Source: Fusarium oxysporum f. sp. lycopersici 4287
Taxonomy: Eukaryota > Ascomycota > Sordariomycetes > Hypocreales > Nectriaceae
Direction of reading: 5' to 3'
NCBI RefSeq assembly: GCF_000149955.1
Contig: NC_030993.1
Location: forward strand, 1 to 64,000
DNA: 64,000 bases
Below the pieces are notes generated by a model. It was not told the origin of the DNA and ran no database searches. It saw nothing but the letters and a program-made list of their open reading frames with translations. Both the position numbers and the translations under genes were made by a program. How positions within the stretch are numbered: the stretch's first letter is position 1; each line of letters begins with the position of its first letter. Below, one piece after another: positions 16,305 to 56,368 of this stretch.

Positions 16305-16307
16305 GTA

Positions 16308-33365: not shown

Positions 33366-34265
33366 TCAAAGAGTCATCATCTCAGACATCTCTGCAACAG
33401 GGCCCATTGAAGGATGATACGTAGTTGGCTTTCCATGCATGACCTTCTGCCATGATGGGCTCTTCTCTTTCACCTTGGCCCAACGTTGCAACTCCAGAGG
33501 CACAAGATCGTCATTACCAACCTCCATACAGCGCAAGGCAAACGGGAGCAGATGGCTATCGAGGATAGTCGGTCCAATATCAGAGCCAAAAGTCCATTCA
33601 TCATAGTCCTCATAAGAGCCACTCTGTCTGCGGTGCTCAACGACTTCTTCAAAAATAGCCTTGAGATCCGCACGATGCTTAGCTACAACACCAGGCTGAA
33701 AGGCGATTGCGTTATGCTGGTTGTGACTAAATTTTATGTAAGTACAATGCTGTTTTAGCTGACGAGGCATAACTGACAAGGCAAGTTTGACTTCCAGAGC
33801 GGCACGATACTGCGGACTGATATCAGTCCTCTGGAGTATCTTTTCAACTGGCGAAGGATTCCGCTGGGTCATTTCTGCAGTCGGATTCGGATTGCTGATT
33901 GATAACCCGTATACAGCATGCAGTCTTTTAAAGAGATCCCTAACAACATTCTCATACTTGCCCCCCAGCATGGCAGGGTAGTGCTTCTCTGCGAGATGAA
34001 GAGAGATGGCACGACTCTCGGTAAGTGTTTCATTGAGGAGGTTACCCTTCATAGCTGGAACTTGTCCTCTTGGGTTGACGTTGATTAGATAATCCTCACT
34101 GAGATTCTCATGGGCCTTGTGATTAATGAAGTGCAGAGTGATGCTTTTTGGTGGCGTTGCATCATGAGTCGTTGGGCCAAGTTGGATTGTGTGACGTGCC
34201 ATCATCGAATAGAGAGAAAAGGGGGACGAGTAGAGAGTGTACTCAGCATTTTTCCAGTCCGTCAT
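33366..34265 (-). CDS. Glutathione S-transferase-like protein
   Basis: The thioredoxin-like N-terminus is clear: YTLYSSPFSLYSMMARHTIQLG, NPRGQVPAM and the glutathione-contacting TESRAISLHLAEKHYP. A helical C-terminal domain follows (WTFGSDIGPTILDSHLLPFALR). Read straight through it is 299 residues. A 78-bp stretch (33696-33773) with GT and CAG ends and a whole number of codons may be an intron, which would leave 273 residues. The upstream in-frame extension to 34382 has no family resemblance. It could conjugate or isomerise a reactive intermediate. It neighbours the aldehyde reductase and the phosphonopyruvate decarboxylase on the same strand. Confidence 0.75.
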   Translation of the reverse strand: MTDWKNAEYTLYSSPFSLYSMMARHTIQLGPTTHDATPPKSITLHFINHKAHENLSEDYLINVNPRGQVPAMKGNLLNETLTESRAISLHLAEKHYPAMLGGKYENVVRDLFKRLHAVYGLSISNPNPTAEMTQRNPSPVEKILQRTDISPQYRAALEVKLALSVMPRQLKQHCTYIKFSHNQHNAIAFQPGVVAKHRADLKAIFEEVVEHRRQSGSYEDYDEWTFGSDIGPTILDSHLLPFALRCMEVGNDDLVPLELQRWAKVKEKSPSWQKVMHGKPTTYHPSMGPVAEMSEMMTL

Positions 34266-34914
34266 GATTGAAGCTGCTTTGACAATGGGCAAGTGTATTG
34301 CAACTGACCTGTTGATCCTCTCAAACGCCGAACAGATGACTGGTGAGGTATGTGAGTTCTGTGAGAGGGGAAGGTTAAGCAATCAGGTGACCCAAGTCAA
34401 AGCAGTACCAAAGGCGGTGCAAAGAATGCAATGGCACAAACACTCGTGACCCTTTTCCAAAAGCAGTCGGATAGGCATGCAGATCGCATGATATGATTCT
34501 TCTTAATCCCGCAGACAACTAAAACTTGTTTGCCATGGTTTGTCACTACAAGGTACCTTGCTCAATGATGCCGATATATCCGAGATGGAATGCAACCAAC
34601 AGTGATAAGCATGCGCCGTAATCTCTTTGCGCACATTCGCAAGCAAACATAGACCAACCACCAATCAGATCTCCAAATCCTTCACACTTGAAATGGGAAC
34701 CGAAAATCGGAGGTCATTGCCTCCTAACTCCAAGATCACACAGTTTCCAGGAAGGCAAACAACCTGATGCAGCGAGGCGTATCAATTACCTCATGCTTGA
34801 GGTTAATGCTGATGAGAGGCTGACCAGGTAACTTTTACGATATCAGTGGAGTTGAGCGGGAATAATAGATGATAAGACTACCGGTAGCAAAATACTCTTC
34901 AACTCGATAGCCAA
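34266..34914. other. Intergenic region between GST-like and AKR genes
   Basis: Contains the GST-like promoter and the AKR 3' end. I see no other gene or clear motif. Confidence 0.35.
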
Positions 34915-35972
34915 CTAATGCCAATAATTGTTCACGCTGCCCTTGGTGATCAACCACGCTTTGTCCAGAACATCCACAATTTCCTTGGGCAAAGGTCCTT
35001 TCTCCAGAAGATTGAGGTTCTGATCCAGCTGACTCTTACTGCTTGCTCCAATAATCACTGCATCGCCTCGCTCAGGATCTAGCTGCGAGTGATGTTCAAT
35101 CCAGCGGAAAGCACAATCCATCTCCGTAAGCCCATGCTTTCCAGCTTCATCCCTAATAAGCTCAACTGCATCAAAGATAACGTCGTTCCAGAATCGCCTC
35201 CTGTACTTGCGACCTTGAAAAGTGTTTGGATCGAAGCGGGACATGGATTCAATGTCTGTATCCTGAGTGTCCCGCTTGTACCGCCCAGTTAGCTGACTTC
35301 CGGCTAGAGGACTGAAGGCATAGAATGTGATCCCGTAGTGTCTGAGACAAGGAAACAACTCCATTTCGACTGTTCGATGGATGGCGTTGTATACTCCTTG
35401 ATAAACGGTAGGTCGAATCCATCCTTCACGAATACACAGCTCGCTCATATAGGCAACCTCCCAAGCCATGTAGTTACTCAGCCCGAGCCTGTTGAACTTC
35501 CCTTCTTTGTGCAACTCATTACAAGCTCTCAAAGTCTCTTCGAATGGGGTGTCGCGGTCTGGTCCATGGAGATACCAGAGATCTATATTGCCTGTCTTGA
35601 GTGCCTTGAGAGACTCATCAAGATGCTTCCGAAGATCATCAGGAGAATGAGTGATCTTACCAGTCCCATCGTGGATGTTGGGATAGAGTTTGGTGTCAAC
35701 CCGAAGACCTCGAGCTTGCCAATCAAGCTGTCCGAGGTATTCCTCGGAGGAACCTTGAGCATACACACGCGCTGTGTCAACGACTGTACCGCCATGTTCT
35801 TGGAAAAGGTCCAGCATGGCACCGGCTTCCTTGAGGTCATGAATACGCGCTTGCTCAACCCCTACTGATATCAGTAAGATTTCTCGCTTAGTAGAAACGC
35901 TACCCTACCTTCTCTCCCGAACGTCATGGCACCGAAAATGACTGGTATACGGGCCTTTTGCGTTTGAGGCAT
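34915..35972 (-). CDS. Aldo/keto reductase, AKR7 (aflatoxin/succinic semialdehyde reductase) type
   Basis: Two exons (35909-35972 and 34915-35864) with a 44-bp intron give 337 residues. The start MPQTQKARIPVIFGAMTFGRE is typical of the family. Catalytic residues are visible: Asp and Tyr in VVDTARVYAQGSSE, Lys in DTKLYP, and His in LWYLHGPDRDTP. The NADPH site is at the C-terminus (AVIIGASSKSQLDQNL). AKR7 enzymes reduce small aldehydes, including succinic semialdehyde, in the cytosol. It lies 0.57 kb from the phosphonopyruvate decarboxylase gene on the same strand. Phosphonoacetaldehyde is similar in shape to succinic semialdehyde, so reduction to 2-hydroxyethylphosphonate is a reasonable guess. 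Confidence 0.9.
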
Positions 35973-36539
35973 GATGAAAATAGATGGTAGTCAATTGTAA
36001 GAACGTCGATGAAGCAAAGTGGAAATGTCACAAACAATTGTATAATTGAAGGTTACAAGGTGAATAATTTCATCGAGGTCGAGAGACTCTCTGGCCTTTT
36101 AAGAGAGGGGGTCGGCCAGCAGATGGGTCCCGTCTCAACCCTATTCCGCTGAGCTTGTACTGTGCCAACAGACAAAGGGCGCGGGGCAGAACCCCCCACT
36201 ACGGAAGCCTGTATACAAACAAAATTACTGCATACTAGTGCTGTTTGCTTGTCGATCAGTGCTTACAATGCTGTACCGGTGCGGGGTATAAGGGGTTAGT
36301 TATAGAGTCATCTGTATCATGTATTTCGTAGATAAGGGAACAAGTCACAAAGGTTATCCAGCGTTGAACAGATTGCACTCGGACACAAGTATCTAAAGAA
36401 TCTTAAAACAATGAACTAAGCTCTAGAGAGCTATCAGTTCCAAAACCTTTACGGAGGCATCAACGGAGTTCACAAAGAGTTGTTGATTACATCAAGTCAA
36501 TTTCAGACTAAATACTCAATATTCCAACGAAATGCCATT
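35973..36539. other. Intergenic region between AKR and phosphonopyruvate decarboxylase
   Basis: About 570 bp with the AKR promoter and the decarboxylase 3' end. No ORF with family resemblance and no repeat was found. Confidence 0.35.
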
Positions 36540-37742
36540 CTATTTGGCAAAATGGGAGATGAACGCATCTCGCAATTCAAACGGGTGCTCCGAGGGACGA
36601 GGCAAATCCTTCGAGACGTCCTGATTGACGACAACAACAATCAGAGCCGTCTTTTCAGCCCACTCAAAAGCCTGGATAAGACCCTCGGCACTATCTACAA
36701 AGAATTTCTGCTTGTAAGGCAAGCTTCCACATAGCGAAAGAAGGTTGTTGGTGCTGATCGGGACAGGCTGATTCCCAGTTGAACAGTGTATGCCGTTGTG
36801 AATCACAACATGGATCAACTTGTCCGAGGCTGAAGCAGCCAGGACGGCCACATTGCCTACGTGCATCAAGAATGAACCGTCACCTTCAACGCAGACGACG
36901 CGACCTTTGTGATGACCGATCTGAACGCCATAGGCGAGAGGGTATGTATGGCCCATGGCTCCAATGGATAAGAATGCACGAGACAGGTCCTCGTTGCTCT
37001 CCTTTCGAACCATGTAAATCTCACGAGAATTGCCCCCAACAGAAGATACAGTGACATCTTCTGGATCGAGCCTCTTGAGAATGATTCTGATGGAGTGTTC
37101 CCGCGACAGAGGGAGGTGTCCTTCCGAGGAACGCCAATCTTCAGGTCTAACTGTATGTTTGGCCAAGTTTGTAACAGCTGGGTGCCAAACACCATTGCTC
37201 GCTTCCTGCTCAGGTCGATATGCAGCGAATCTGTGGTTGGGAATGACAAGAGCAACAGGGGTTTGTCCCTCTCTGGCGGCTTTAATGAGCCTTGCAACTG
37301 CACTCTTGGTGTCTTCAAGAGTGTCTGGCAGGATCTCATAAGGAAACCCTTGAGACTCCAGAGTCTCCAGCGTACGAGGGCCTGCCAAGAGGTGTTCAGG
37401 CTCGTCATGCTCCCCTGGTCGTCCTCGCCAGCCGACCATAAGAAGCATTGGGATACCAAACACTTCTTTGGCAGCCAAAGATTGCAGAGGGTTTAACGCA
37501 TTTGCAAGACCTGAGTTCTGCATGTATGCAACGGCGAGACTCTGGGTTGACAGATAGTAACCTGCAGCCAGCGCAGCTGCAGCGCCTTCACTAGCTGTGA
37601 CAATCTGTTCTGGAGACTTTTTGGTAGCATATAAATGTGCTAGGAATCCCTTCAAACAGGAGTCAGGGACACCAAAGGCATGAGTGATCCCATTGTCGAC
37701 GAGTGCCTCCTCGTAGAACAAATGAGGATCAAGGGTAGCCAT
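36540..37742 (-). CDS. Phosphonopyruvate decarboxylase (thiamine diphosphate-dependent)
   Basis: A single exon encodes 400 residues, the normal length for this family and much shorter than acetolactate synthase or pyruvate decarboxylase. The N-terminus has GITHAFGVPDSCLKGFLAHL and the cofactor-activating Glu in TASEGAAAALAAGY, followed by YMQNSGLANALNPLQSLA, a signature of phosphonopyruvate decarboxylases. The diphosphate-binding segment GDGSFLMHVGNVAVLAA runs to HNGIHCSTGNQP. The enzyme removes CO2 from phosphonopyruvate to give phosphonoacetaldehyde, which pulls the unfavourable PEP mutase reaction forward. The PEP mutase gene lies 9.6 kb away on the same strand. An upstream in-frame extension lacks resemblance, so the start is 37742. 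Confidence 0.9.
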   Translation of the reverse strand: MATLDPHLFYEEALVDNGITHAFGVPDSCLKGFLAHLYATKKSPEQIVTASEGAAAALAAGYYLSTQSLAVAYMQNSGLANALNPLQSLAAKEVFGIPMLLMVGWRGRPGEHDEPEHLLAGPRTLETLESQGFPYEILPDTLEDTKSAVARLIKAAREGQTPVALVIPNHRFAAYRPEQEASNGVWHPAVTNLAKHTVRPEDWRSSEGHLPLSREHSIRIILKRLDPEDVTVSSVGGNSREIYMVRKESNEDLSRAFLSIGAMGHTYPLAYGVQIGHHKGRVVCVEGDGSFLMHVGNVAVLAASASDKLIHVVIHNGIHCSTGNQPVPISTNNLLSLCGSLPYKQKFFVDSAEGLIQAFEWAEKTALIVVVVNQDVSKDLPRPSEHPFELRDAFISHFAK

Positions 37743-39234
37743 AGTGATTGCAAAGTGTAAGCAGGTGTAGTGCGTTAGAGAATGTTGTAACAGATATTTG
37801 TTACCATATAGTGTTTGAGGGTGATGAGGTGATGATGGAAGTGATCGAGATATTGACTGCTGTGATGGTATACCCAGTGGTCTCTTTCCCCCACGAAGCG
37901 CAGGCAACATTCGGGCATACGGAGTCAACATGAACTCGCAATCTTGGATATTCCGCATCTCCAACACAATGCAACCATGGTCATACGACGACTTGCCTTT
38001 TCGAGATACTATTCTCACACATAGAACCCCACGCCTTCATACATTAAAGGTTATCAGTTCCTCTGCGATGCTACGGTGATACATGCCGAGATGACGTGGC
38101 CTGACTGATTGAAGCATTTGATGAGTGTTACTGGCTGAGACAGTACCCAAGTGCAGCTCGTTACTGTAACTGGGAACTGTAGCCTTTTCGTGATACTTTG
38201 AACACGAGTTTCAAAGCGTTTGTACTAGCGTACAAGGATCATCACATCATCCGGGAATGGGGGTGCCACTGTCAGAGATTACGAAAATACAACATAAGCT
38301 TCCTTACAAGCATGATAAGCATTGGAAAGGATGTGTTGCACCGAGAAATAACAAAGAGAAGATCAATGGTTTCATGGTGTTGTGCATCAGTAACAGAGAC
38401 AATGGCATCATTCGAAGGATTTAGGATACATCCATCTTGATTGGAGCATGCACGCGACCAAGTGCCTGTCCTACTTGTCTTACCATGCATGTATGTACCC
38501 CTATCCGGGGTTGTAAACCACTAAAACGGCTCCCCGCTTATCATTGTGAGGCGAATTCAACCGTGAGAGGGGCCGGAGTGGAATTGGTTAGTGGATTCGG
38601 TGTATTTCAACCCCAAACCGCGAAATAACAGGGGTCTAATTGCATAAGTTAGCCTTTCAATCCTTTCACACTGTCGATGTTCACACGGCTTATGCACTCT
38701 CCTGCAAGACTACGGGTACGGCTCGCAAACCCTGGCCTCAGCTGCTACCCGGCGCTATCTTATGCTTCTTTCAGTTGCCGCCCCTAAACATGTCCGTGCC
38801 GAGATATCCGTGAGACGCGGGTGGTTCTCCATGTTGCATTTTCCTAACCCTACACCTCCTACACGAATGACGGGGAGACCATCATGATTCATGTCAATGA
38901 TAGCATCGGCATCTGGGATCTATACGCGCCAGCCTACGAAAGGATCCGCTGTCTGGATGGTGCTGGAAGACCGGCTGGCGATTGAGGAGGGCACGTATCC
39001 TCAGAAGTTCACGTCTCGGGTAGCTCACCTATTCCAGCAACGCCTCTGCGCTTCATCCCGCCGGCACATTTCATACTGGGATTGACCGAGAGATAAGCAT
39101 TTCATCTATCTCATCAGATCACGTACAGTGGCATATCCAACGGTGGCTCACTCAGTACTGAGAATTCCTACGGTCATACTGCCTTCCTGTCTCATTCTCT
39201 GTTTCGACAGTTGTTTGATACATCGAATATCATA
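37743..39234. other. 1.5-kb divergent intergenic region
   Basis: The region lies between the decarboxylase and the GH31 gene. Only short unsupported ORFs occur. Scattered CCG and CGG triplets are present (for example GGCCGGAG near 38570) without a repeated site I can defend. It probably holds both promoters. Confidence 0.4.
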
Positions 39235-42200
39235 ATGTTACTCTATTTGCTTGCTTTAATACTATTCATAGTTCTAGCTCAAGGTACGCGTCCATTGGTG
39301 AGCTTGTAGATGAAACATGCAGACTAACTTATGCACCTGTAGCTGAGTCGTCGATATCGACCGTTGTTCAGTCCAAGACGGCCTCTCCTGAGATTGCCGT
39401 CGCTCCCAGCCTGACGCCAACATTCCGGGACCCTCATGCACCTAATCCACAGAAGTGCCCCGGCTACAAGGCCACAAATATCAAGAGGGATCTCAAAGGT
39501 GTAAAGGCAGATCTAACTATTGCTGGACCTAACTGTCAAGCTTTGTACGTATTCACTTCACTCGGTGTAACACTCTTCTGATTAGACCTAGTGGTAATGA
39601 TATTCGTGACCTGGTATTAGAGGTTAAATATCAGACTAAAGAGCGTTTGAATGTCAAGATATTCCCCAAGTATTTGTCTGAACAGAACAAAACTCAGTAT
39701 ATCCTACCAGAGTCACTTGTATTCGAGCCAGGGAGAGATGAGAAAACGACAATCTCGAATAGTGACCTCAGGTTCGACTTTACGTGAGCTGCTCATTTGT
39801 TCTGATAGAAATCACTGGGGCTGATCTATTTCATATAGCAACTCTCCAAGCTTCCAGTTCAAGATCACCCGAAGCTGCAATAGGGAGGTCCTGTTTTCGA
39901 CTTATGGCCATGTTATCGTTTTTGAGGACCAGTTCATTGAACTGGTTACCAACATGGAGCCTGACTACAATGTCTATGGACTAGGTACGGCAAACGTCAA
40001 GATGTATGTAACTAAGCTGACATTTGCAATAGCTGAGAACATCCATGACTTCCATCTGGGGCAGAACTTCACACAAACCTTCTGGACCAATGACGCTGGC
40101 ATTGAGCACGGCAACCCTATTGATGGAAACATATATGGCGTGCATCCCTTCTACCAGCAGAGCCGATACCATAAGGGCAGCAATACCACTTCTCACGGTG
40201 TATATGCACGCAATGCTCATGGCCAAGAATGGCTTCTGAGATCAAAGACTTTGACATACCGTACCATCGGTGGAAGTGTTGATATCTACTTCCTCAGCGG
40301 CCAGAACAAGCAAGGCGGGTCTACAGCTATTGAGACCATGCGCCAGTATCATGCTGGCTGCGTTGGCTTGCCTGCAATGCAAATGTTCTGGACACTGGGC
40401 TTTCATCAATGTCGATTGGGATATGACACCCTCGACAAAATTGAGGCTGTGGTAGAGAATTATAGAGCCGCTGATATCCCACTTGAGGCTATTTGGTCAG
40501 ACTTTGACATGTTTGATGGTTTCCGCAGCTTCGCAAATAACCTTGTTACCTTTCCACCTGATCGCATGTCAAAGTGGGTAGACTGGCTTCACGAGAACGA
40601 GCAGTACTACGTTCCGCTTGTCTGGGCCAACATATACCGGCCGAATCCTGATGATCCAAAGGATACTTATGGTCCTTATGAACGCGGCGCCAAGCTCAAA
40701 GCCTTCATCAGAGATCCAGAGTCAGGCGACTTCTACACGGGTAACAACTGGCCAGGGTTCGTTGTCTGGGGAGATTTCATGCTGCCCGAGACACACAAAT
40801 GGTGGGCTGAAGAGCTCAAGATATGGTACGACAGTGTGCCTTACGATGGGATGCTGTCTGATCTGACAGAACCTGCTTCATACTGTGTTGGGCCATGCGG
40901 CAATAGTCGTCTGGATATGAACCCTGTTCACGTTCCCTTCTTGATTCCTGGAGAAAAGCTCAGGATGTTTTATGAGTACCCAGATGGTTTCAGTGTGACC
41001 AACCGCTCCGAGGCCGAAATGGCAAAAGAGCTTGCGGCCAATCAGTCAGCCGAAGTCCAGGCCGCGCATGTGTTCCAAGTCCCTGCTACAAGCACGCTAG
41101 GACGCACTGAGCCAACACCAGGTGTCAGAAACCTCACTTATCCACCTTATGTTCTTAATAAGTAGGTTAACCCGTTTACAATCATGAAGCAAAATACTAA
41201 CAGCTACCTTATTTTACAACCTGGCCACTCTATCAGAAGAATGACCATTTCTCCAGATGCAACTCACAATGATGAGTTGAACACCACTGAGTACCAAATG
41301 CATAATCTGTTTGGCAACCAGATCTCTAATGCGACCTACCACGGACTGCTTGAGTTGTTCCCTGGTCATCGCCCATTCAACATCGCCCGTGGCAACTTTG
41401 CTGGCATTGGCAGATATGCTACGAGATGGGGCGGTGATAACTCATCAAAATGGGGAAGCATGTTCTTGTCCATCTCACATGCTCTGACGCACATGATGGC
41501 TGGAATACCTATGTTTGGAGTTGACATCTGTGGTTACTCTCACAATGCTAGCTTTGATCTTTGCGCCCGATGGATGTCTCTGGGTGCCTTCATGCCTTTT
41601 TATCGCAATCATAATATGGGTGGTACCATATCTCAAGAGGCGTTCGTTTGGTCATCTGTTGCTGAAGCTTCACGTCGAGCTATAGCGATAAGATACAGCC
41701 TCCTCAACTACATTTACACACTGTTCTACTACGCCAATACCAAAGGCGACCTTGTCATGCGAGCTTTGGCATGGGAGTTTCCAAATGACGAGAGCCTCAA
41801 GGCCACCTACTCCCAGTTTTTACTGGGTCCATCCCTTTTAGTAACACCTGTGCTCACTCCAAACTCCAAAACAGTTCGCGGTGTTTTTCCTGGGATTGGA
41901 GAAGGAACAAGGTGGTATGACTGGTACACATTGAATGAAGTCCATGCCAAACCTCAAGAGAACATCACTCTTGATGCACCTTTGGAACATATTAATCTTC
42001 ACATCAGAGGCGGCACGGTATTCACATTGCAAAAACCAGGAAATACAACTGCAGCGACAAGAAGGAACCCGTTCTCACTTCTCTTGGCTCTAGACGATAA
42101 TGAGTATGCTGAAGGAAGTGTGTATTTTGATGACGGTGTCAGTCTCGAACCAGAAGCCACCAAGACTGTCGCAGTAAGCGAAATGGCCCTTGATCTCAGC

Positions 42201-42484
42201 CTGAAACCTTGGCTAATCGTACCCTATAGTATACCTTCAGGAAGGGAATTCTAAGGGCGGAAACCACTGGTGACTACAAAGTCAGTCCTCCACTTGTAAA
42301 CATAACTGTTGCTGGACTTCGCAAGGCGCCCAAGAGAGTTGAGTTCCATTCTGATGAAGGAAAGCAAAAAGGTTTGTCACCCAAGCTTGAATACAGTAAC
42401 GGCACGGCATATGTAACAGAGCTGGAACACTTTACACGGAATGGGGCCTTTAGATATGACTTTCAGGTCACATTCAAGTATTAA
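39235..42484 (+). CDS. Secreted GH31 alpha-glucosidase with altered catalytic motif
   Basis: Seven exons (39235-39283, 39343-39544, 39586-39783, 39839-39984, 40033-41161, 41237-42173, 42230-42484) join to 971 residues. A signal peptide (MLLYLLALILFIVLAQ) precedes the family start CPGYKATNIK. Other marks are YGLAENIHDFHLG, IWSDFDMFDGFRSF, RWGGDNSSKWGSMFLSISHA (acid/base Asp) and HNMGGTISQEAF. GH31 enzymes release glucose from the non-reducing end of alpha-glucans, outside the cell. The nucleophile motif usually read as W-x-D-M-N-E is here LSDLTE: the Asp is kept but three flanking positions differ, so specificity may be unusual. The exon 5/6 junction is the least certain. It sits between the two phosphonate genes on the opposite strand. 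Confidence 0.87.
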
Positions 42485-42759: not shown

Positions 42760-44306
42760 CTAACTACGTCGTCCACAGGTCCACGAGTCAGGCCACCAAC
42801 TCCAGATGACAACCCAGCCTCCAGCGAGAGATACGAGCCCCGTAAAGAGAATTAGAGGCCCATAGGTGCTCCCATACCCAAAGTGTTGGCAGTCAGAAAT
42901 TGTGCCGGCGTTGATCAGCCAAACACTCGCTGCACCTCCAACAAGATACCCGATGCCTCTTACACCGTTGATTAGACCGTATATCAGCCCAGCATCAATG
43001 GAATCTCCCCTCTCCGCGGAGTCATTCTCCATCTGCTTGAGGATTCCTCCCCAAGTAGCACTGTAGCCACTTGAGAAGAAGCCAAACGTGATTGAGAAGA
43101 GAACAAGGAGAAAGACCCCTCCCTGCGTAGTATTTCCCCAGAAGAGGAACACAGCCAATCCACTTGTGATGCACGGAATTGCTGATACTGTTTGCGCCGA
43201 CAGGACAATTTGCTTGTTATCACTAAGCCACCCGAAAAAGGCAGATGCAAGGATACCAACGGCGTTCTGCAGAGCCAAGACAACGGTTGCCATTGTCTCC
43301 GATAAAAGACTAAAGTCTTGGGCATATGTGCCCAGGTAGGTCTGGGGCAGGCCATAACCGGTGCCCTGGAAGAAGACAGCAATGCTATAGAAGTATATGG
43401 CGGGGTGCTTGAGAAAGTCCCAGGGGATGTTTCTTTCCGGCGTCTTGTGCATGGCAATTCTCGACGGTGGAATGGGAACAAGGCTAATGCTGAGGATGCT
43501 CGCTGCGCCAACAAACACCGCCCAGGCAGTCATAGTTGTCCGGAAGCCCCACGTATCCAGTGAAGCTTTGAACAAGAACGGGCCAAGGGTGCCAACGATA
43601 TTCTTGCATGACAAGACCAGTCCGTATGCTACGGATCGGTTGCTGGTGGTGTACCATTCACCCAAGGAGAGGGTGATGGGGCTGTAGATAAGGGCGCAAC
43701 CAAACGCCGAGGTGATTCCCTGCGTAACAAGCAGATGCCAAACATTTGTGCTGAATGTTGACAGGAAGAAGCTGATGGAAGCTATGAGGGCACCGCAGAA
43801 AGCAGCCTCTTGACGCCGGTACGCCCATCGTCTTGTGAACAGCGCGAAAAGGAAGGGCATGGAGAGGTACATGATGCCATTGGCGGTCGTTCCAATGGCA
43901 CCTGTAATATCTTTGTTTCCCTGGAGTGTCCAGTTATTGAAATAATATTCTTCCAATACGCCGTAACTAATTGCAAAGCCTGGGAATTTGGTGAGTAGAT
44001 GTTTGGCACAAGGCTAGAGGGGGACATACCCCAGATTGGTATTTGGATAACCCCATTAGCTGCCAGGACACGAATGAGGGTTCGTCTGGGAATATGGTCG
44101 TGCTTCAATTCGCTTTCGCTGATTGCAATGTCGTTTTCAAGGTCGGAGTCGGACGCATCGTCACCGGCTGAAGCGCCCGGCTCGACGAGAAGAATTTGGT
44201 CGACATGGTTTCGAGAAACGGGCTGGTACTCGGGTCTGCCAAAAAGGAATCATGTCAGACAATGAGTAAAGTGGATGCAGGGAAAAGGATTGTCCTACCT
44301 CGCCAT
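42760..44306 (-). CDS. MFS transporter, monocarboxylate-transporter-like, paralogue A
   Basis: Three exons (44299-44306, 44030-44235, 42760-43979) give 477 residues. An acidic cytosolic N-terminus (ASDSDLENDIAISESE) leads into membrane segments starting IPIWGFAISYGVLEEYYF. Repeated signature pieces are MYLSMPFLFALFTRRWAYRR, FGCALIYSPITLSLGEWYTTSNRSVAYG, FGWLSDNK and FSSGYSATWGGILKQ. About 12 helices are expected, as in fungal MCT-like carriers of organic acids. It lies between the two phosphonate enzymes' genes on the same strand and has a close paralogue at 52929-54395. Export of the end product, or import of a precursor, is plausible. Confidence 0.85.
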
Positions 44307-45232: not shown

Positions 45233-46615
45233 TCAGTCTGCATGGAGCAAAACCTTGTGAGGTCGATCATCAACCTGCACCCCGCCCCTCCTCTTCCAAT
45301 CAGAATCATGATAAGGCAGTTTCCAGCCACCTTCACTCTCAGGCGTAGAGACCCACAGTCGCAGGAGATGGCGCCGGGGAGCAGGCGGCTCGTGGTCAGT
45401 GTAGGCCTGGCGAGAATGGTAGAGATGGTTGTTAGTCATGAAATGAACATCTCCAACCTCAAGGACATTGCCGATGGATTCTTTGTAGCAAGTTTGATCA
45501 AAGAACTCAATCGCCTCTGCCTGTGCATCGGAGAGAGGGGGGATGATGCCTTTGTCAGAGAACCGCTTGAGAGACCTAACGTAGTTTGGATCAAATCTAC
45601 AATTGAGAATGTAAGCATCATGGCTTCAAGACTGCAGCGAGGGAGGGAGTTGGCTTACTTGGAGTACACTCTGCCATTTCCCTTCTCAATGTAGTAAATG
45701 GCACATCGAATGTAATCCTCTTGTCCATCACTGACTTCTCCCTTTCGGTCAAAGTACCAAATGGGCTGGGTGAGGAGTTCCGCGATATCAGGGCGCTCCT
45801 CTTGCATAACGTTCCAGACCCGATGGCCTGAAACGATGTTGTTCTCGCCTCCTTTCAGCGGAGTATTGAGGCATAGCAGTCCGACAATATCTGCCGGGTC
45901 CGCATGGAAAGTTTGTCTGGAATACGAGTAAGTCCAACTGCCGGGCAGGGTCTCTAGTTACATACCTTGCCGTGGTTCGATACAGTCGGACCTTGTGAAA
46001 GTCCGCAGGATTCTCACCAAGGTCCTTGATGTGCCCCAGCACATGGCCCCTACCGTTCTGACTCACGATGTGCCCGAAGTGCGCTCCTAAGCCCATGTAT
46101 GCCGTGGACGACTTACGCATGCCCCATTCTTTGACGGGCATGCCTTGAAACAAGATGAATCCGTAACCATTGATCATATCATCTCGGACCTCTTCAAGAT
46201 ACTTCTCCATGCGAGGAAGAGGGAAGAGCTCCTAAAGAGGCTTGTCAGTCCTTGTACACATGCAATTATTAACTCGTACCTTGCACATCTCGTTCAAGTC
46301 CCGACCGCTGTTGATGTAATTCTCAGCAGCGGTGCTCAGGTCTTCAAGCTCTTCCTCAGTGAAAGGATGCTTCCAGATAGCTTCCTTCTCAGGAGAGCCT
46401 GAAAGATCATCTTTAGTCCAGGCGGTTATGCCAGTGATCTTCTTGGGAAAATCTGAGTATGGGTGTATTTCCTCATAGAGAGGTGGCTGTTGCCCAGTGG
46501 TTTTGTATCCATCTGGGAAGAGTGCTGATTTGGGCTTCACCTCTAGCTTGGTGCGGTACTCAGTCTTGGGGAGATGAGAAAAGTCGCTGACTGTTTCGAT
46601 AAGACCAGGAGCCAT
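45233..46615 (-). CDS. TauD/TfdA-family Fe(II)/2-oxoglutarate dioxygenase
   Basis: Four exons (46280-46615, 45966-46231, 45659-45916, 45233-45596) join in frame to 407 residues. Exon 2 gives GYGFILFQGMPVKEWGMRKSS and AYMGLGAHFG. The iron-binding HxD is in QTFHADPADIVGLL at the start of exon 3, followed by LKGGEN. The distal His is likely in DVHFMTNNHLYHSRQAY and the 2-oxoglutarate-binding Arg in RRHLLRLWVS. This is a complete clavaminate-synthase-like fold. Relatives hydroxylate or cleave small acids, including sulfonates (TauD) and, in bacteria, phosphonates (PhnY). It lies 0.73 kb from the PEP mutase gene on the same strand, making it the best candidate tailoring enzyme of the cluster. Its substrate is unknown. 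Confidence 0.9.
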
Positions 46616-47343
46616 CTTGGAAGTGTCAAGTTCAAAGTGTGAAAGTGATTTGAATAGTTGAAGTTGTTTGTATTTCTTTAGGTTAGTCGGTCTGTACGTC
46701 GCTTCAAAGATACCAAGATGTCTTTATAATTTGGACTGCTTTCAATGTCTGTCTTGGCATCGGAGTACCTCAATTAGAAGGTTCGTTGTTACTCGGAGCC
46801 TCCTGGGGTCTCACTACATAAGGCCACGTCAACTGGACCATTTACTTTGTGTTCCAACTTTGTCGTTACATATCGATAGTCACAGACGTGACATAGCCAG
46901 CCCAGTAGGACCCTCACACCTCCCATTGCCGATGATCCGTGCGGTTAATGTTGAAATCTGAAGTAAGCTTGACCATATGCAATACAACCCAATAATGGCT
47001 TGGCTGTGGTAGTAAACACCCTCCCACTATCCAAGCGCATGAAACGCGAGATGGCGCAACGCAAGATATCAAAATTCCAGCTGCCCAATCCAGTCTAGAA
47101 CATGCCGGCCCCAAATAATGATGAGCAAGTCTTCAACAAGACAGACTGCATGCAATATGTGACTCCCTTGATAACAGTAATGATATGCGAGTAGTAGCAA
47201 TGTTTTTCTCGCATACCAAAAGCACCTGGCTGTTAGGATGATATTGCAGGACAGGGTTGTTGAATAACTTGCATTAAGACGTGACCAAGAGGTTTGCAGA
47301 AATATGAGACAGATTAGGCAGAACGAAATAAGCTTAACCTAAT
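46616..47343. other. Intergenic region between dioxygenase and PEP mutase genes
   Basis: About 0.73 kb containing the dioxygenase promoter and the PEP mutase 3' end. No other gene or motif was recognised. Confidence 0.35.
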
Positions 47344-48600
47344 CTAGTAAACATCTACCTGGGTGACAAGTTCTCCCACCGGAACCACCTGCTTCGCATT
47401 GATCTTGAGAAGTTCCTTAACGCTCACAATACGCGTGTCTGCCTCGCATCCCGCGAGCTTCCCCTCCAATAAGTCAATGACTGTTGCCTGAATGTTCTCC
47501 GAGGCGGTCGCCTCCGCAACAATCCTGTACATCCTCGCCTCATTGCTCTCCTCACCCCAAACACTGCGGTTTCGCAGCTTTCTGAGAAGGCAGCCATAGT
47601 TACGAGCCTGGATCATCGCACGGATCTCAGCGTCGTTGTAAAACAAGTCCAAGTTCTTGGCTAGGATCTTGTCAGAGATGGAACCAACAGCACTAATCTT
47701 AGCGCGCATCAAATGGTTGGCGTAGATGATAACGTTAGCTCCAGCTTCGTACAGGGCATCCTTTGGTATCTCTGAGTAAGTAGTCGGAACGACAACAAGA
47801 GGTGTCTGGGAGTCGAACTCGCGGTACTCGCGCAAGAACCGAGTAACCTCATGTGGAGATTTACTCTTGGAGTGGATCATGATAGCGTCGATACCCGCCT
47901 CATGGTAGATCTTGGCACGCTTCAAGGCATCTTGGTGTGCATCCTCGTATGACTTGCTTTCCTCTTCCGCATCTGCCTTCGAGACACGGCAGCAGAAGGA
48001 TTCAATGCGAGCAGTGATCATAGGACCTCCCTTTGCCTTTCCATTGACAGCCCTGAAAGCGCGGATTACTTCCGCGAATTCGTGGGGATCAGCCAAGGCC
48101 TGCGAAGCAGATGACGCAGCAAGCGAGTTGACCTTTTGGCCTGGGGCTGAAACGGCCTTGTCCTCAATGACTACCATGCCGACACCGACAAGGTTCATGA
48201 GTGCGACCAAGGCAGGGATATCTGCGATATCACCACCACTGTCAGCGTCGAAAGCGGCACAGAGAGAGCGGTTGCTTGTTTTGCGCTTGAGCTCCCCGTC
48301 AAGTGCGAGGAGCGATGCTCGCTGGAGCGGGGAAAGTGTCTCGCTGTCTGGAATACCTAGATAGGTAGTCTGACAGAGACCGCTGTACCAGATGCCATCG
48401 AACTTCTGGCCGTTCTTGGCAACTGTTGCTCTGATGATCTCTGTTGAGGTACCATCATGAGATTCACAGAGAATGATTCTGTTGTTGTTCTGGGCCAGTG
48501 CTGAGCGCACGGAAGAGAAGGCAGGCGAGGGTGAAGGTTCAGTATGAAGGGAACCCATCTTGCTGACTTGGTAGTCTTTGTACGACTTTGGAACTGACAA
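47344..48600 (-). CDS. Phosphoenolpyruvate mutase (PEP phosphomutase)
   Basis: A single exon of 418 codons is read on the minus strand. It belongs to the PEP mutase/isocitrate lyase superfamily: GIWYSGLCQTTYLGIPDSE, the Mg-binding DADSGGD in place of the usual DGDTGYG, and ITARIESF. The mutase loop EDK...NS is present as EDKAVSAPGQKVNS; the usual spacing of five residues is nine here. The cysteine motif of the lyases and oxaloacetate hydrolase (KKCGH type) is absent. The enzyme rearranges PEP to phosphonopyruvate, forming the C-P bond. It is about 120 residues longer than bacterial mutases, mainly at the C-terminus (RARNYG-type helix, then KELLKINAKQVVPVGELV). Another in-frame ATG at 48558 is possible. 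A phosphonopyruvate decarboxylase gene in the same window supports the call. Confidence 0.85.
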   Translation of the reverse strand: MSVPKSYKDYQVSKMGSLHTEPSPSPAFSSVRSALAQNNNRIILCESHDGTSTEIIRATVAKNGQKFDGIWYSGLCQTTYLGIPDSETLSPLQRASLLALDGELKRKTSNRSLCAAFDADSGGDIADIPALVALMNLVGVGMVVIEDKAVSAPGQKVNSLAASSASQALADPHEFAEVIRAFRAVNGKAKGGPMITARIESFCCRVSKADAEEESKSYEDAHQDALKRAKIYHEAGIDAIMIHSKSKSPHEVTRFLREYREFDSQTPLVVVPTTYSEIPKDALYEAGANVIIYANHLMRAKISAVGSISDKILAKNLDLFYNDAEIRAMIQARNYGCLLRKLRNRSVWGEESNEARMYRIVAEATASENIQATVIDLLEGKLAGCEADTRIVSVKELLKINAKQVVPVGELVTQVDVY

Positions 48601-50260
48601 TATCTTTAATTAAGTGAGTAGAGGATCGTGGACAATGAAGATGAGTATCATCAAGAATAATGATTTTCTGTTCTAAATCTAGCCAAGAGCCGGCCGTTTT
48701 CACCCATTATTATACTTGTTCACTATCTTGGCCATGGCCTCTGAAACAGCAACAACCCTTGTCCACAGTCAGTGGGACATATTCTCATCAGCTACGCTTA
48801 TTTTTAATACTGGCTTTCACTTTCTACTCGAGTCTTGTATCCTGTGAGTTATTTCCTAGTTCGTCTGTCCTCTATTGTCTGTCACCGCGTTCACCGTGCT
48901 CAGATGGGTAGGGGGACCCAATGCAGCATCTGTCAGATTCCCCCAAGATATCTTGGTCCGTGGTGATGCTACACACCCTCACTGCTCACCGTATCTGGCT
49001 ATCATGAACCAGGTAGGCTGCAAAAGGGATAGATTCTGGCAGGCTGTATGTTTCTTGGCTCTCGGTAAAGATGCCGATGAACCCCACGTAATTACAGATA
49101 AGAATAAGTAACGATTTCGTGTCAGCAATTGCATCATCCGGGTCTCGTGCCTTGTTTCCGCATTTAATGTAGAATAGGAACAAGATGCATTATCACGCAG
49201 CATGACATCGCCGATCTTTACAGGTTAAGCTTTATGGAGGTGGGGAGTAGGCCACGTCGTCAATCCCCTGAGACAACAACAGGGACACGGCGTCCCTCGC
49301 GAGTCAAGATACAGGAACTTGTGCAGCGGCAGTTATAGGATCGAATTAATGGTGTCCACACCGCGAAGCAACTCCCCGTCTCAAGACTGAGATTCGTAAC
49401 TGCAAGGATGGGAGAGGATTGTCTGCAGAGCCCCGAAATTCACCGAATCGAGGACTTTGGTGCGTAGATCCCTGCATAAGCGGATCCGAGGTTGGATGCA
49501 CAAGGACGGCACATGATATGATAAGCACATTGCGGGGAGACCAAGCTCAGATCATGAGCGTTAGTTTGCGGATTTATTCACCTAAACATGTTTACTGTGT
49601 GGAGATGCCTCGCTCGGAGACTCCGTCTTGACTAAACCCGGCCCGGGCCGAATCGCCAAGCTGTCTTGTCCATCTTGCAGGGCTCGTGCCAAGTAACTTG
49701 CGTCGCACTAATGCTCAGGAACTATTGCGGATGATCCGTCTCGCTTGATGGGACTATTCCTGGTAGGCAGTATCTCTAGTGTTGCGACCTGGCGCATGTG
49801 TAATGTTGCAATGTCAGCCGCAAGTTGGCGGGTGGCACGGGATGCACTGACTCAGGAATCTACAATGCGACATTGACACTTCCTTGTCGTATCGTCTTAT
49901 CTTACGAAAGTCTTTCAAATGAACAATTGTGATTAAAAAGATCTTCGTAATGATTGGTAGAGGGTCATGTCAGCAGGCTGATTGCAGGTGCCCAATATCC
50001 TTTCATTGCTATTGTCCTTGTACCTTGAGTACACGTAGCCCTGGTCCTTGTTTGCTTAAGGGGAAATTCTAACAGACGGAGGCATAGGAGCAGCGATATC
50101 GGGTGATTTGGGTCACTATGCCAAGATGGATGTATTGCACTTGTCTAGTTCAGTATGCATGAAGTAATCGCCAGCCTAAATCGTCTTTTCGTATATAAAT
50201 TCGCAGGAGTGTATGTGGGTTTCACATAGTAGTAACGAAGGGAGGACCAAATACGCCGAC
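48601..50260. other. 1.66-kb divergent intergenic region with a TATA box
   Basis: The region lies between PEP mutase (minus) and the GMC gene (plus) and should hold both promoters. TATATAAA at 50192-50199 lies about 62 bp before the GMC ATG. CCGGCCG occurs near 48691, upstream of the mutase. Short ORFs in both strands show no family resemblance. Confidence 0.45.
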
Positions 50261-52238
50261 ATGCATATTCTTCCTGTTTTGTGTTCCCTTCTTGTGTCAG
50301 CACTCGCTGAAGACGTGCCCCCTCAGTTTGATGATGGGCAGCTCACTGGTAACGGATTTGGTATACCGGGTATCAATGCCACCTATGACTATGTCATCGT
50401 TGGTGGTGGGACAGCAGGTGCTCTCGCAGCAGCGCGTCTAACTGAGCACAGTAACGCGACGGTTGCTTTGGTTGAGGCGGGAGGGTTCTATGAACTGAGT
50501 AACGGTAACGTCAGCCAGTTACCATTTAGTAAGTCTCAATGTTCACAACCTGGGTTTATAACAAGCTGATTTGATTTAGGGATCAATGACTGGAAAGGGT
50601 CAGGCGGCGCGTCTAGCTGGCAACCACTTATTGATTGGGGTTACTTCACTCAGCCTCAGAACGTAAGTACCTCCACGATCTCAATACGGTTCTCTTGTAC
50701 TGATGTTGAATAGAACGGGAAGAAGATTCATTATGCACAGGGTAGAACATTTGGCGGCAGTAGTGCCAGAAACCTCATGATGTTCAACCGCCCTACCAAA
50801 GGAGCATACAAGCACTGGGCCGAGAAAGTCGGCGATGATGCCTACACGTGGGAGAATATGCTCAAGTTCAACACAAGAACTATGAAGTTCTCAGATAACA
50901 GTCAGCATCGCCCTCAGAACGCCACGGCCCTTTATGACACTGCCGCTTTCTCAGAGAAAGGGGGTCCTCTACACCTCACCTTTCCAGGATACGTTTTCCC
51001 AGTCTCGTGGGACGCCATCAAAGCTTTTGAAGCACTGGGATTCAAAGAGATCCCGAGCTTCACCGCTGGTGCCTTGCAAGGTTGGGGCTGGTGGCAGTTC
51101 TCCATCAACCCTGAGACCGGTCTCCGTGATTCTTCTGAGAGTTCGTTTTTGCAGCAAAGCCTGGGTCGGCCTGGTTTGACAACATACATCAACACCATGG
51201 CTCGCAAGATTCTCTTCTCTGGCAAAAAAGCCGTTGGTGTCACCGTTGATAATTATGGCCAGCAATCCTTCAACCTTACGGCCCGGAGGGAAGTCATTGT
51301 TGCTGCAGGACTCTGGAGCAGCCCTCAGCTACTGATGGTTTCTGGTGTTGGACCTGAAGAGACGCTCAAAAGGTTTGACATCCCAGTCCTATCAAATCTA
51401 CCGGGAGTCGGCCAAGGCACACATGATTCAGCTGCTGTTCATGGGCCTATCTGGGAGATTGAAGGCATTTCAACGGGCGGTTGGAAACAGCCCTCCAAGA
51501 TGAAAGAAGCCATCACTGAGTTCAATCAACACAAGAAGGGACCTCTTACCAACGGTGGCGTTGATGTCGGGGCATTCGAGAAGATTCCTCTGGCAAATCT
51601 CAGCAAGAAGGCCCAAGAGGATCTCGCTCAGTACCCTGAGGACTGGCCTGAGGTAGAATTCATTATGCAGATGGTTGATCCTCCAGCTGGAGCAACTGGT
51701 AAGAACTATGCCGCCATGACCATCAGAATGGTTGGGACTGTGAGTCGTGGCAATATGACCATCTCATCTGCGAGCAACCTTGACCCTCCTATCATTGATC
51801 CGAACTGGCTACGAGCAGATACAGACAAAGAGGTAGCTCTTTATGCCCTCCGAAGAGCCCGTCAGCTTTGGGAGCATATTCCTTCTAAAATCGGTAAGGA
51901 GATATACCCTGGCGCCAGTATCACCAGTGACGAGCATTTGCTGGATCTCACATACGACAACCTCGACCCGACGCATCATGGCACCGCTTCTTGTAAGTTC
52001 ACGTCTTTATGCTACGAATATGAGCTCATGCTAATACATTACAGGTAGCATGGGCAAAGCTGGTGATCCATCAGCAGTGGTCGACTCTAAAGGCCGCGTT
52101 TTTGGCATCAAGAATTTGCGTGTTATTGATTCTTCTACAATGCCACTGACACCACCTGGACATACAATGGGTCCTACATATGGTAATGCTGAGAAATTGG
52201 TACAGGATATCTTGAATGCCTACCATGGTTTAGAGTAG
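50261..52238 (+). CDS. Secreted GMC oxidoreductase (FAD-dependent)
   Basis: Four exons (50261-50528, 50580-50662, 50714-51992, 52045-52238) give 607 residues. A signal peptide (MHILPVLCSLLVSALAED) is followed by the FAD-binding YDYVIVGGGTAGALAAARL with the Glu at VALVEAG. Also present are the GMC signature GRTFGGSSARNLMMFNR, VIVAAGLWSSPQLLMVSGVG (second signature) and the catalytic His in THHGTASCSMGK. The last segment is PLTPPGHTMGPTYGNAEKL. It resembles aryl-alcohol oxidase or PatE-type enzymes that oxidise alcohols in the vacuole, wall or outside. The start at 50261 follows a TATATAAA and begins the signal peptide. Its place in the cluster is inferred from position. Confidence 0.9.
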
Positions 52239-52928
52239 CTGGGATCAACCTGGTCGCGTAGCATTATAGTAGAGAGATGTTTGGCTATTAATACTGATAG
52301 ACAATGGCATCAATTCAGGTTTAGCAATTTCATTCAGGCATTACCTGAATGATCGATGCCAACGCTCCACCTCAATCTACTGACTGTCTCCTGTGCCCCA
52401 ATTCGCAAACTTGTAAAGCGTTGTATCAGCCATGAATCACGCCATCATTCCGTCCCGTAAGCTACCATATTCTGTTCAGAATTGGAACTTGTTTGGCGAT
52501 ATCGGAGGAGCCTTGGTACTGTCAATCGCTGAGGGTACGAGACCCGATCATTGGACGTGCACCGTTGACGGCCATGTAAAGTTCCTCGCATGTACACCGC
52601 CATTTACTCCACAGCATTGCAACATGTCAGTACAGGTGTGTGTGACTGCAAGAAGAGACAAAGTCTGCACCGTATTTGGAGGGTGTGCTATGATAATAAT
52701 ATGTGGACACCAAATGATTGGGCGTTTACGCTGATCAATTCGGAGCTGCTTATCACCCCGAAGCCGGCTAGAAGCGCTCAGTGTTCACTGCGGTGGCACT
52801 TAGAAGCCGAGTCTGCGTTTCTCCCCACTTACGAAAGCAAAACACTGCTGCTTTATTTTCCTTTTACTTTGCAAAGCAGGCTCTAGCTTGACCCTGTCAA
52901 AGATATCGCAACAGATCGGCCGCTCCTC
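52239..52928. other. Intergenic region between GMC and MFS B genes
   Basis: Contains the GMC 3' end and the MFS B promoter. Two overlapping plus-strand ORFs (52432-52734, 52590-52886) show no resemblance to known proteins and I do not call them genes. Confidence 0.35.
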
Positions 52929-54395
52929 ATGGCGGAAACAGAGAAACACGGACGGTCTCAAGATGGGCCTATACTGCAAAGCAGTTTTCAGCGGGATGAG
53001 AATTCAGCCGAACAGGCTTCTCACTCAACTAACCAGACCGATTCAAACCTGGCGATCGATAATGATCACAAAAAGAAGCTCGGCGTGCTTTGGGGCTCAG
53101 CACTCATGCAGCTCCCACTCTGGGGTAGGCAAACTATGGCTTAACATTATACATTAACTAACAATACCATTCTAGGCTTCAATCTGAGTTACGGTATTTT
53201 TGAAGAATACTGGACAAGCAACTGGACTCTCGATGGCGATCTCTCCATCACTGGCACAGTCGGCACTACCTCCAACGGAGTCATGTATATCTCCATGCCG
53301 TTCCTATTTGCCATATTCACCCGCTACTGGGCCCATCACCGGCTCAAAGCAGAGCTCGGAGGTCTTACCATAGCATTCCTTGGGTTCATTCTCTCCTCAT
53401 TCAGTACCCATGTATGGCATCTCATGGTCACACAAGGCGTCATGGCTGCTTTTGGTTGTACTCTCGTGTATAGTCCAGCAACATGTTCTCTTGGGGAGTG
53501 GTATGCCACTGGCAACCGGGCTATTGCCTATGGTATTATTCTCTCGTGTAGAAACATTGTCGGTTCGGTCTGTCCTTTTTTGCTGCGGTATCTTCTCGAC
53601 CAATATGGCTTTCGGTGGACAATTAGGATTTGGGGGTTCATCTTGGCTGGTTCAGGTCTCCTGTCCATCTTTCTCGTGCCGACTCATCCTTCAAAGACAG
53701 TAGCACGAGACGGAAAACCTCCTCGAATACCATGGACGTTCCTGAAACACCGTGGCATTTACACCTACTTTGTTGCAGTTATGGTTCAAAGCTCAGGATA
53801 CTGTCTACCACAAACATACCTCCCGACGTTTGCACGAGAGTTCAACGGCGCCAGTCAAGCGATTTCTACCCTCTTGCTAACATTGCACAATATTCCTGGC
53901 ATCCTCTCGTGCTTCTTCTTTGGCTGGCTTACGGACAATAAGTATCATCAATTTTCGGCCACTACAATAACTTGCCTCTCAGCTTTCGCATCATCGGCCT
54001 CTGTGCTCTTACTCTGGGGGTTATCGGTAGACGGAAGCCCTGCTCTTACTCTCGTATTCGCTATCATCTTTGGATTCTTCGCTGGTGGTTATAGTGCAAC
54101 GTGGGGAGGCATTACTAAGGAACTCGAAGGTGAAGCAGAAGTTCATAACGAGACTATTGACTCCAGTCTTACATATGGACTTCTCAATGGAGCTCGAGGC
54201 ATCGGGTTTGTGAGCGGTGGCCTTGTGAGCATCCCACTGCTGAGTTCTGGGGATACAGGCTGGGGAGGAAGATTTGGCTACGGAACCAAGTATGGCCCAC
54301 TCATGGTATTCACTGGCATTGCAGTTGCTTTTGGTGGCCTGGGGTTGATTAGGGCTACAAGGATAAGACCACACAAGTCTTCAACATCAGGTTGA
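52929..54395 (+). CDS. MFS transporter, monocarboxylate-transporter-like, paralogue B
   Basis: Two exons (52929-53124 and 53176-54395) give 471 residues. The hydrophilic N-terminus (NQTDSNLAIDNDHKKKLG) precedes QLPLWGFNLSYGIFEEYW. Throughout, it parallels the carrier at 42760-44306: MYISMPFLFAIFTRYWAHHR, FGCTLVYSPATCSLGEWYATGNRAIAYG, FGWLTDNK, FAGGYSATWGGITKE. Both last exons are exactly 1220 bp, and their introns split the same Gly codon after PxWG. The two genes therefore arose by duplication. They sit on opposite strands about 9 kb apart, with the dioxygenase, PEP mutase and GMC genes between them. Confidence 0.88.
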
Positions 54396-54642
54396 ATCTA
54401 TGACTGCAACGAATGGGCGGATTGAAATGTATGTTAGATTATCTGGTGGCCTGACTGACCCGCTGGAGGTCGCTGAACCGCGCTGCCTTAACTATAGGTA
54501 AATTCGATCGTTGGCAACCCAGCCTAGCCTGTTGCTACTGCTCCCAAGAACACTTGATCCCAACTAAGCATAATATCTTCTATGGGCCGTTACCAAACAT
54601 AATATACTTTAATTCTCTAGCTTGCCAGTGACTCTTGTGCAT

Positions 54643-56368
54643 TCACACTTTCTCACGAACAACCTCTTTTAGTTTGATAGGCAGTCCACCCTTCTCCCAT
54701 AGGAAGAAGATCTTCTGGTCGTACCAGTCTTTATCGGCTGGTACAGCCTCAAGGTCAAACTTCCAGAGCATGCGAGCCAACAAGAGTCGCATCTCGGTAT
54801 ACGCCAGACTGTTTCTCATGTCAGCCGTGTCTTGTGTTAGTCACGGCGGGGCACTTACTTTTTGCCAATACAGTCACGGGGTCCGAGGGAGAATGGCGAT
54901 AGGATAGCCCGGTTGTCGCTCGCATATCGAGGATCATCCAACCAACGTTCTGGGACAAACTTCTTGGGATCTCTGAAGTTTAGTTCTGAGTAATATGCGG
55001 GCCAGTGAGGCATCGAAACCGCAGTCTGTATGTAAAAGTCAGAGTTTGGTGAATGCAACTGGAAGCTATAAGTTCGACTTACATTCTCAGGAATCCAATA
55101 ACCGTCGATGAACTCGCCACCGGCTGGGGAAAGTCTCGACAGTCCTACAGCAACTGGTGGGTCTAAAAGGACGATCAGTACACAATGCAGTGGAAATAGC
55201 CTGATGATAGGGAACCTTACACATGCGAAACCCTTCGTTGAAGACAGCCAGCATATACTTCAGTTGGTCAACCTGGGTAACAGTGATCTCTTCCTCTGAG
55301 CTAAAGGCAGAGCGTATCTCATTTATCAACTTCTCAAGCTTGTCAGGGTTCTTGAGAAGGAAATAGGTGGTTCCACTGAGAAGAGTAGCTGTTGTCTCGC
55401 TGCCAGCGATGATCATGACCCCCGAATTTTCGATAATCTCAAGCTGCGACATACCCTTCTCATCGTTATGACGAAGGACATAGGACATAAAGTCTTGGCT
55501 GTCAGTATCCTTGGATTCAATGCGGGCGAGTGCCGCGTGCTCTGCGAACTGCATATGCTCTTCATAGCTCTTCCTCAAGCTTGGCGGACTCAACAAAGAG
55601 ATCCAATTCTGAAGACCGAGGCGCACGTAGATCTGAGTATAAGAAAGAACCTTGAGGCCCTTGAAGACTCTGCTGACCCAAGGATGATACTTTCCATTCT
55701 CAAGACATCCGAAAGGCTGACCAAGAGCGAGATGACCAATGAGATCGAACGAGGCAAAGTTATACCAAGCTACAATGTCGATTTCCTCTCCTCGCTGTGC
55801 CCGCTCTGTGAGGCCTTTCATGAACAGTTCGACGTAGTGATCCACAACATCACCTTGACCGCGAAGTGCCTTTGACGAAAAGGCATGTGCAAGTAGGCGG
55901 CGCATACGTCTGTGGTCTTCCTGGTCGGAACGAACGATGCTTGAGCAAGGACGGTTTTGGCGATACATACGAAAGTCCTTCTCAAACGATTTGTTTCCAG
56001 CCGCTTTGTGACCGTAGATCTTCTTGGAAGCTTCCGCAGTGATGAAGGAGACATCTTTGGGCGTGAATCTGACAGCTGGTCCATATTGTTCGTGCAGTTT
56101 TGCGAGGTGGAAGACCCAGTCGCCTTTGCTGAGATAGTAGAGATAGGGAATTTGAGTTATGGCATATAGTTTCGGTCCTGGGACTTTGGCGAGTGGGTGA
56201 AAGAAAGCGTAGTATACAGAACTAATGAAAAGGTAAAGAAGCTTTGCAAGATGATTAGAAGGATAACTAGAGGTCTGTGAGACTTGAACTTACTAAAGCA
56301 ATACCTGAAAGAGCCATCGCGGAGCCAAGGCTTAGCTCGGCCAGTGCTTCGGTATGAAGTACACCCAT
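54643..56368 (-). CDS. Cytochrome P450, CYP65/TRI11-like layout
   Basis: Minus-strand exons assemble to a full microsomal P450 of roughly 490 residues. The region around residues 20-45 (about 56150-56310) has alternative splice readings and is uncertain. From there it reads HPLAKVPGPKLYAITQIPYLYYL, the I-helix with GVMIIAGSETTATLLSG, ExxR-region text FNEGFRMYPPVAVGLSRLSP (spliced at 55220/55162), FVPERWL, and the haem loop FSLGPRDCIGKNLAY (the Cys is the haem ligand), spliced near 54855. The start is set at 56368 (MGVLHTEALAELS). Relatives hydroxylate terpenoids and other secondary metabolites. The end is KEVVREKV at 54643. It closes the candidate cluster on the right; its membership is uncertain. 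Confidence 0.85.

Follow-up and report, generated by a model that had tools for sequence, protein, structure and literature searches.

A probable fosfonochlorin gene cluster in Fusarium oxysporum f. sp. lycopersici 4287

A phosphonate locus at the end of a Fusarium contig

Which natural product is made by a group of phosphonate-type genes between positions 33,366 and 56,368 of a 64,000-nucleotide stretch of the Fusarium oxysporum f. sp. lycopersici 4287 genome (NC_030993.1, hereafter the window)? It covers the initial 64 kb of this contig (C8; genome 61.2 Mb, 71 contigs), and a first-pass annotation of its sequence had placed a candidate fungal phosphonate cluster there, with a small hydroxylated or oxidised phosphonate as the best guess at its product and a pathway that might differ from that of fosfonochlorin. 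Our analysis indicates from sequence that the phosphonate cluster is real and conserved, and that it is very probably the already described fosfonochlorin (ffn) cluster of F. oxysporum (Table 1). The cluster itself is largely known; what merits follow-up is its late chemistry and the group of fungal mutases with an extended lid to which its mutase belongs. The assignment would link an antibiotic of a rare fungal type, already named, to a precise gene set in a well-studied genome.

Genes for phosphoenolpyruvate (PEP) mutase and phosphonopyruvate decarboxylase (Ppd) span 12 kb, each as a single open frame, and are accompanied by an AKR7-type reductase, a TauD-type Fe/2-oxoglutarate (2OG) dioxygenase and a glutathione S-transferase (GST)-like protein. 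The first-pass annotation had recognized the two enzymes, and family scores point the same way. The mutase matches Pfam PF13714 (E = 3.6e-37). Of three families compared, NCBIfam PEP mutase TIGR02320 gives it the highest score, 199 bits, below the curated threshold of 319.55; phosphonopyruvate hydrolase follows at 75.9 bits and methylisocitrate lyase at 25. Ppd scores 303.9 bits against TIGR03297, slightly below the cut-off of 312.5, with 82.7 for the next family. Pfam also supports the neighbours that had been listed, namely the AKR7, TauD and GST proteins, two related MFS carriers, a GMC oxidase, a cytochrome P450 and a Zn2Cys6 regulator. The AKR7-type protein, proposed here to be the phosphonoacetaldehyde reductase, has aflatoxin aldehyde reductase as its best PDB match (1gve, E = 3e-85). 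The Pfam scan covered 22 stretches of the window, with part of its genes in pieces, and among the families found there are no halogenase, aminotransferase or nucleotidyltransferase, as the first-pass annotation had stated.

Table 1. Features of the phosphonate locus, with positions in the window
Feature	Position	Strand	Description
Zn2Cys6 transcription factor	31107..33125	+	two open frames, introns left out of model
GST-like protein	33366..34265	-	282 aa; 2 exons: 33778-34265, 33366-33726
AKR7-type aldo-keto reductase	34915..35972	-	2 exons: 35909-35972, 34915-35861
Phosphonopyruvate decarboxylase (Ppd)	36540..37742	-	400 aa, intronless; TIGR03297; best PDB match 9iz3
AGGCCACGTC	38093..38102	-	upstream of Ppd; weak motif lead
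GH31 glycosidase	39219..42254	+	inside cluster, introns left out of model
MFS carrier 1	42760..44306	-	5' end by eye
TauD-type Fe/2OG dioxygenase	45233..46615	-	407 aa; 4 exons: 46280-46615, 45966-46231, 45659-45916, 45233-45596
AGGCCACGTC	46821..46830	+	upstream of TauD; weak motif lead
PEP mutase (PEPM)	47344..48558	-	404 aa, intronless, lid motif EDK-x9-NS
AGGCCACGTC	49249..49258	+	upstream of PEPM; weak motif lead
GMC oxidoreductase	50261..52238	+	4 exons, 606-607 aa, N-terminal signal-like segment (by eye); putative cluster member
MFS carrier 2	52929..54395	+	5' end by eye; putative cluster member
Cytochrome P450	54600..56368	-	ends approximate; putative cluster member

Linkage in relatives was read from locus tags and contigs for pairs of mutase, dioxygenase and GST; we infer that contigs of equal size are one contig and that the spacing of tags reflects that of genes. 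Seven other fungi hold two of the three genes together, either on one contig or at near locus tags. Mutase and dioxygenase carry consecutive tags in Penicillium longicatenatum (N7507_006384/006385) and Talaromyces islandicus (PISL3812_04807/04808), and in Clonostachys rosea both are recorded on a contig of 175,512 bases; the two genes are linked in all three species that have a listed mutase together with a listed dioxygenase at 81% identity or more. F. lateritium has its mutase and GST six tags apart (ACHAPU_002245, 002251) and F. graminum five (FGRMN_6229, 6224), and in Hypoxylon sp. CI-4A each of the two lies on a 177,828-base contig. In T. pinophilus six tags separate dioxygenase and GST, and no mutase of this species is among the best 120 of 800 mutase homologues (proteins P0121-P0240), the set to which all statements on mutase homologues refer. 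The first-pass annotation had named a lack of joint conservation or co-expression of mutase and decarboxylase in relatives as grounds for refutation; conservation holds for the mutase-dioxygenase and mutase-GST neighbourhoods, the pairs covered. A chance gathering of phosphonate genes is very unlikely, because a mutase protein search of the 61 Mb genome returns this locus as its sole match and because these gene pairs recur in other fungi. Family scores, the mutase tree described below and the recurring pairs all support the fungal phosphonate cluster originally proposed.

A mutase with an extended lid motif

The mutase gene was first drawn from 48600, and a start at 48558 is preferred, as all 11 close homologues checked begin with MGS or MGF at that point. 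The protein is 97% identical to one from Fusarium proliferatum (cluster of 75 sequences). In a tree of 39 sequences, the 16 fungal-type members group together within the mutases (100/100), lyases are separate (100/100), and the hydrolase falls outside on a weak fork (90/28). A grouping of the protein with lyases or hydrolases, the outcome named at first pass as fatal to the phosphonate reading, does not appear in this tree.

Two bacterial surveys accept a protein as a mutase only if it carries the motif EDKX5NS (PMC6697681 and PMC12723261). The window mutase fails this motif when it is read literally, having EDK-AVSAPGQKV-NS, with nine residues instead of five. EDK-x9-NS is found in 118 of the 120 mutase homologues, the two exceptions being P0200, with ten residues, and P0159, with EDR...SS; EDKx5NS is found in all 80 prokaryote loci kept from 242 retrieved by the fungal alignment. 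The window protein retains EDK and K-x-N-S, including the lysine and asparagine after the lid. In its predicted structure residues 135-149 are without helix or strand and confidence falls below 50 at 146-150, as would be seen if the region around 135-150 were a mobile lid. Clade, fold and remaining residues suggest that the protein acts like a PEP mutase, and we regard it as a putative lid-extended fungal subtype of that enzyme. The four-residue-longer fungal motif may be new to the literature, and EDKX5NS filters, if applied to fungi, would drop nearly all of the 120 homologues.

The 120 homologues span many fungal genera, and every member with an organism name is fungal, many having no such name. 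The rarity that the first-pass annotation ascribed to fungal phosphonates may hold for the products, but mutases are not rare in fungi. Mutases of only 46-61% identity (P0157-P0240) occur in Penicillium, Aspergillus, Purpureocillium, Metarhizium, lichens and F. culmorum, among many fungi, and point to other fungal phosphonate pathways.

Probable assignment to the fosfonochlorin pathway

Fosfonochlorin is chloroacetylphosphonic acid, and Talaromyces is another reported source of it. The work of Gama and colleagues reportedly used Fusarium and Talaromyces genes, and in it phosphonoacetaldehyde is said to have been reduced to 2-hydroxyethylphosphonate and (S)-epoxyethylphosphonate to have been formed, with the late steps (chloride, oxidation) reportedly left unassigned. 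The ffn gene set comprises a mutase, a decarboxylase, an aldehyde reductase and an Fe/2OG dioxygenase, and all are present together in the window. The locus shares with the ffn pathway of Fusarium and Talaromyces the mutase and decarboxylase logic, aldehyde reduction, an Fe/2OG dioxygenase for 2-hydroxyethylphosphonate, and the genera themselves. PMC10764440 describes FfnD as a cyclase of the fosfonochlorin route, which closes the epoxide and needs 2OG and oxygen, and cites for it a ChemBioChem article (Gama et al., 2022) with a fungal organophosphonate and an oxacyclase in its title. Given this fit between gene content and a pathway with an epoxide-closing FfnD, the earlier suggestion of a pathway other than that of fosfonochlorin is unsupported, and the unknown small hydroxylated phosphonate is probably wrong.

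We propose that the window dioxygenase is the FfnD orthologue. The joined exons carry an HAD motif and a distal histidine at the expected positions (by eye), and PDB matches at E 0.001 are limited to FrbJ of FR-900098 biosynthesis (5eqn, E = 3.7e-32) and 7n7v. FrbJ is thus the closest solved relative by sequence, but it is distant and a hydroxylase. The relatives considered are 120 listed of 1696, from a search restricted to proteins of about 224-712 aa. The four closest are from T. pinophilus, T. islandicus, P. longicatenatum and C. rosea at 81-82% identity (82% over the full length to a Talaromyces protein); the fifth, from a 1.7 kb contig, is at 63% and the others at 60% or less. The same genome holds an ordinary relative on another contig (C7), whose segments share 57-66% identity with the T. 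pinophilus protein. A parallel exists with fosfomycin biosynthesis (Fom1, Fom2, HppE), in which a mutase and a decarboxylase also act before epoxide closure on a hydroxy-phosphonate; the reductase of the bacterial route is from another family. HppE is 2OG-independent and inverts configuration, whereas FfnD is 2OG-dependent and retains it (PMC10764440).

Related regions have been described in the genus. An antiSMASH phosphonate/fosfonochlorin-like region of high similarity is given for F. oxysporum BPF55 (PMC13117560), phosphonate or fosfonochlorin-like regions are given for F. proliferatum (PMC13355032) and tabulated in a paper on an F. citricola-complex isolate (PMC12072968), and phosphonate clusters of unknown product are given for ten F. 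solani-complex genomes (PMC10455376).

Several observations weigh against the fosfonochlorin assignment or the membership of its parts. The likeness to ffn is drawn from pathway descriptions and gene content, and in F. oxysporum f. sp. lentis the antiSMASH similarity to fosfonochlorin is only 53% (PMC12213878). Fosfonochlorin was undetectable in three F. avenaceum strains, in a study that questions isolated earlier reports, including the one for that species (PMC4237347). The 120 of 1696 dioxygenase relatives include none from Fusarium with more than 60% identity, though Fusarium GST and mutase proteins are listed; perhaps the Fusarium gene models are shorter or longer than the search accepts. 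Mutase and GST lie on different-sized contigs in Biscogniauxia mediterranea, P. macrosclerotiorum, T. proteolyticus and Aphanocladium album, and GST homologues occur in fungi without a mutase among the 120 listed, such as Lipomyces, Monascus and Apiospora. T. islandicus, P. longicatenatum and C. rosea are absent from the 91 proteins returned by the GST search, all of which are listed, and the GST is therefore possibly not part of the enzymatic core.

Proposed late steps and competing explanations

Under the fosfonochlorin assignment, PEP mutase would convert phosphoenolpyruvate to phosphonopyruvate and the decarboxylase would draw the reaction onward to phosphonoacetaldehyde, as their sequence families imply. 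From the published pathway and from sequence family, the AKR7-type reductase would then yield 2-hydroxyethylphosphonate, and the TauD-type enzyme (FfnD) would form (S)-epoxyethylphosphonate from it. Chloride might open this epoxide at the end carbon to give 2-chloro-1-hydroxyethylphosphonate, with the GST-like protein as a candidate catalyst or with no enzyme, and a halogenase would be unnecessary because chloride could open the FfnD-made epoxide. Oxidation of the alcohol would give chloroacetylphosphonate, that is, fosfonochlorin. We hypothesize that an MFS carrier exports the precursor and that a secreted GMC oxidase performs the last oxidation outside the cell, which would spare the producer.

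The GST-like protein is the only candidate for epoxide opening among the proteins with a testable neighbourhood, and a glutathione-linked detoxification role is just as likely. It is 100% identical to FOXG_02660 of F. oxysporum f. sp. lycopersici 4287 (cluster of 37 sequences), and its model is a plain GST fold (pLDDT 89.8). The GMC oxidase gene is intact and its product looks secreted. Its closest PDB match, and so its closest solved relative by sequence, is patulin synthase PatE (8bxl); PatE differs in its product, patulin, and the likeness is one of sequence. According to PMC7824139, PatE carries out the alcohol oxidation that completes patulin, and its location is vacuolar or at the cell wall. 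That the neighbouring GMC oxidase looks secreted and resembles patulin synthase suggests that the final oxidation could take place outside the cell, and this may be new. The whole combination, in which fungal PEP mutases form one lid-extended subtype missed by motif-based surveys, chlorination proceeds without a halogenase (through the GST or no enzyme) and extracellular GMC oxidation serves self-protection, is an unlikely proposal that we offer tentatively. The gene set narrows the question of chlorine addition to two or three genes open to test.

The competing explanations differ in what they would make of the same genes. A phosphonate cluster with another product, in which the dioxygenase forms 1,2-dihydroxyethylphosphonate and the P450 and GMC oxidase continue from there, would accommodate the lack of a halogenase family in the scanned stretches, the hydroxylase function of TauD relatives such as FrbJ, and the reliance of the ffn likeness on descriptions. 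We nevertheless judge it improbable, as two of the four closest dioxygenases (120 of 1696) are from Talaromyces, a reported fosfonochlorin source, and as F. oxysporum phosphonate regions have already been matched to fosfonochlorin (PMC13117560 and PMC12213878). Breakdown of phosphonates or C3 acids by a lyase or hydrolase locus, instead of synthesis, has in its favour that phosphonopyruvate hydrolase is the PDB match right after the mutases (E = 6e-18) and that the hydrolase fork of the tree is weak; it is scarcely credible in view of the family scores, the tree, the asparagine of the NS motif, which reads TS in the hydrolase, and the adjacent phosphonopyruvate decarboxylase, which fits best after a mutase. 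That the genes are silent or decayed could be argued from their subtelomeric position next to AT-rich, transposon-bearing DNA, but the five core frames are intact and the mutase retains its near-identity to the F. proliferatum protein, which leaves this explanation very improbable.

Neighbouring genes and genomic setting

MFS carriers 1 and 2 share 51% identity, and the GH31 glycosidase is a probable passenger. To the right of the cluster, positions 60848-62491 (-) encode a beta-lactamase-family serine hydrolase with DUF3471.

The location of the window is probably subtelomeric, because degenerate CCCTAA-like repeats and a stretch at 20% GC open it. Positions 1-18000 are AT-rich (20-42% GC, except for block 2001-4000), and the remainder is at 45-50% GC. 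Within this AT-rich DNA lies an RNase H domain remnant of a retroelement (8779-9420, -), and at 24283-26749 (-) there are pieces that by eye resemble a hAT-type transposase, 25616-26746 being without a Pfam match. Just inside the terminal repeats, positions 1862-5350 (+) hold an intact 1162-aa frame with a reverse transcriptase domain (RVT_1) and, by eye, a Cys-rich tail. It has 20 matches in the genome, and the element is not restricted to chromosome ends, because the three next longest matches, which contain stops, sit far inside contigs.

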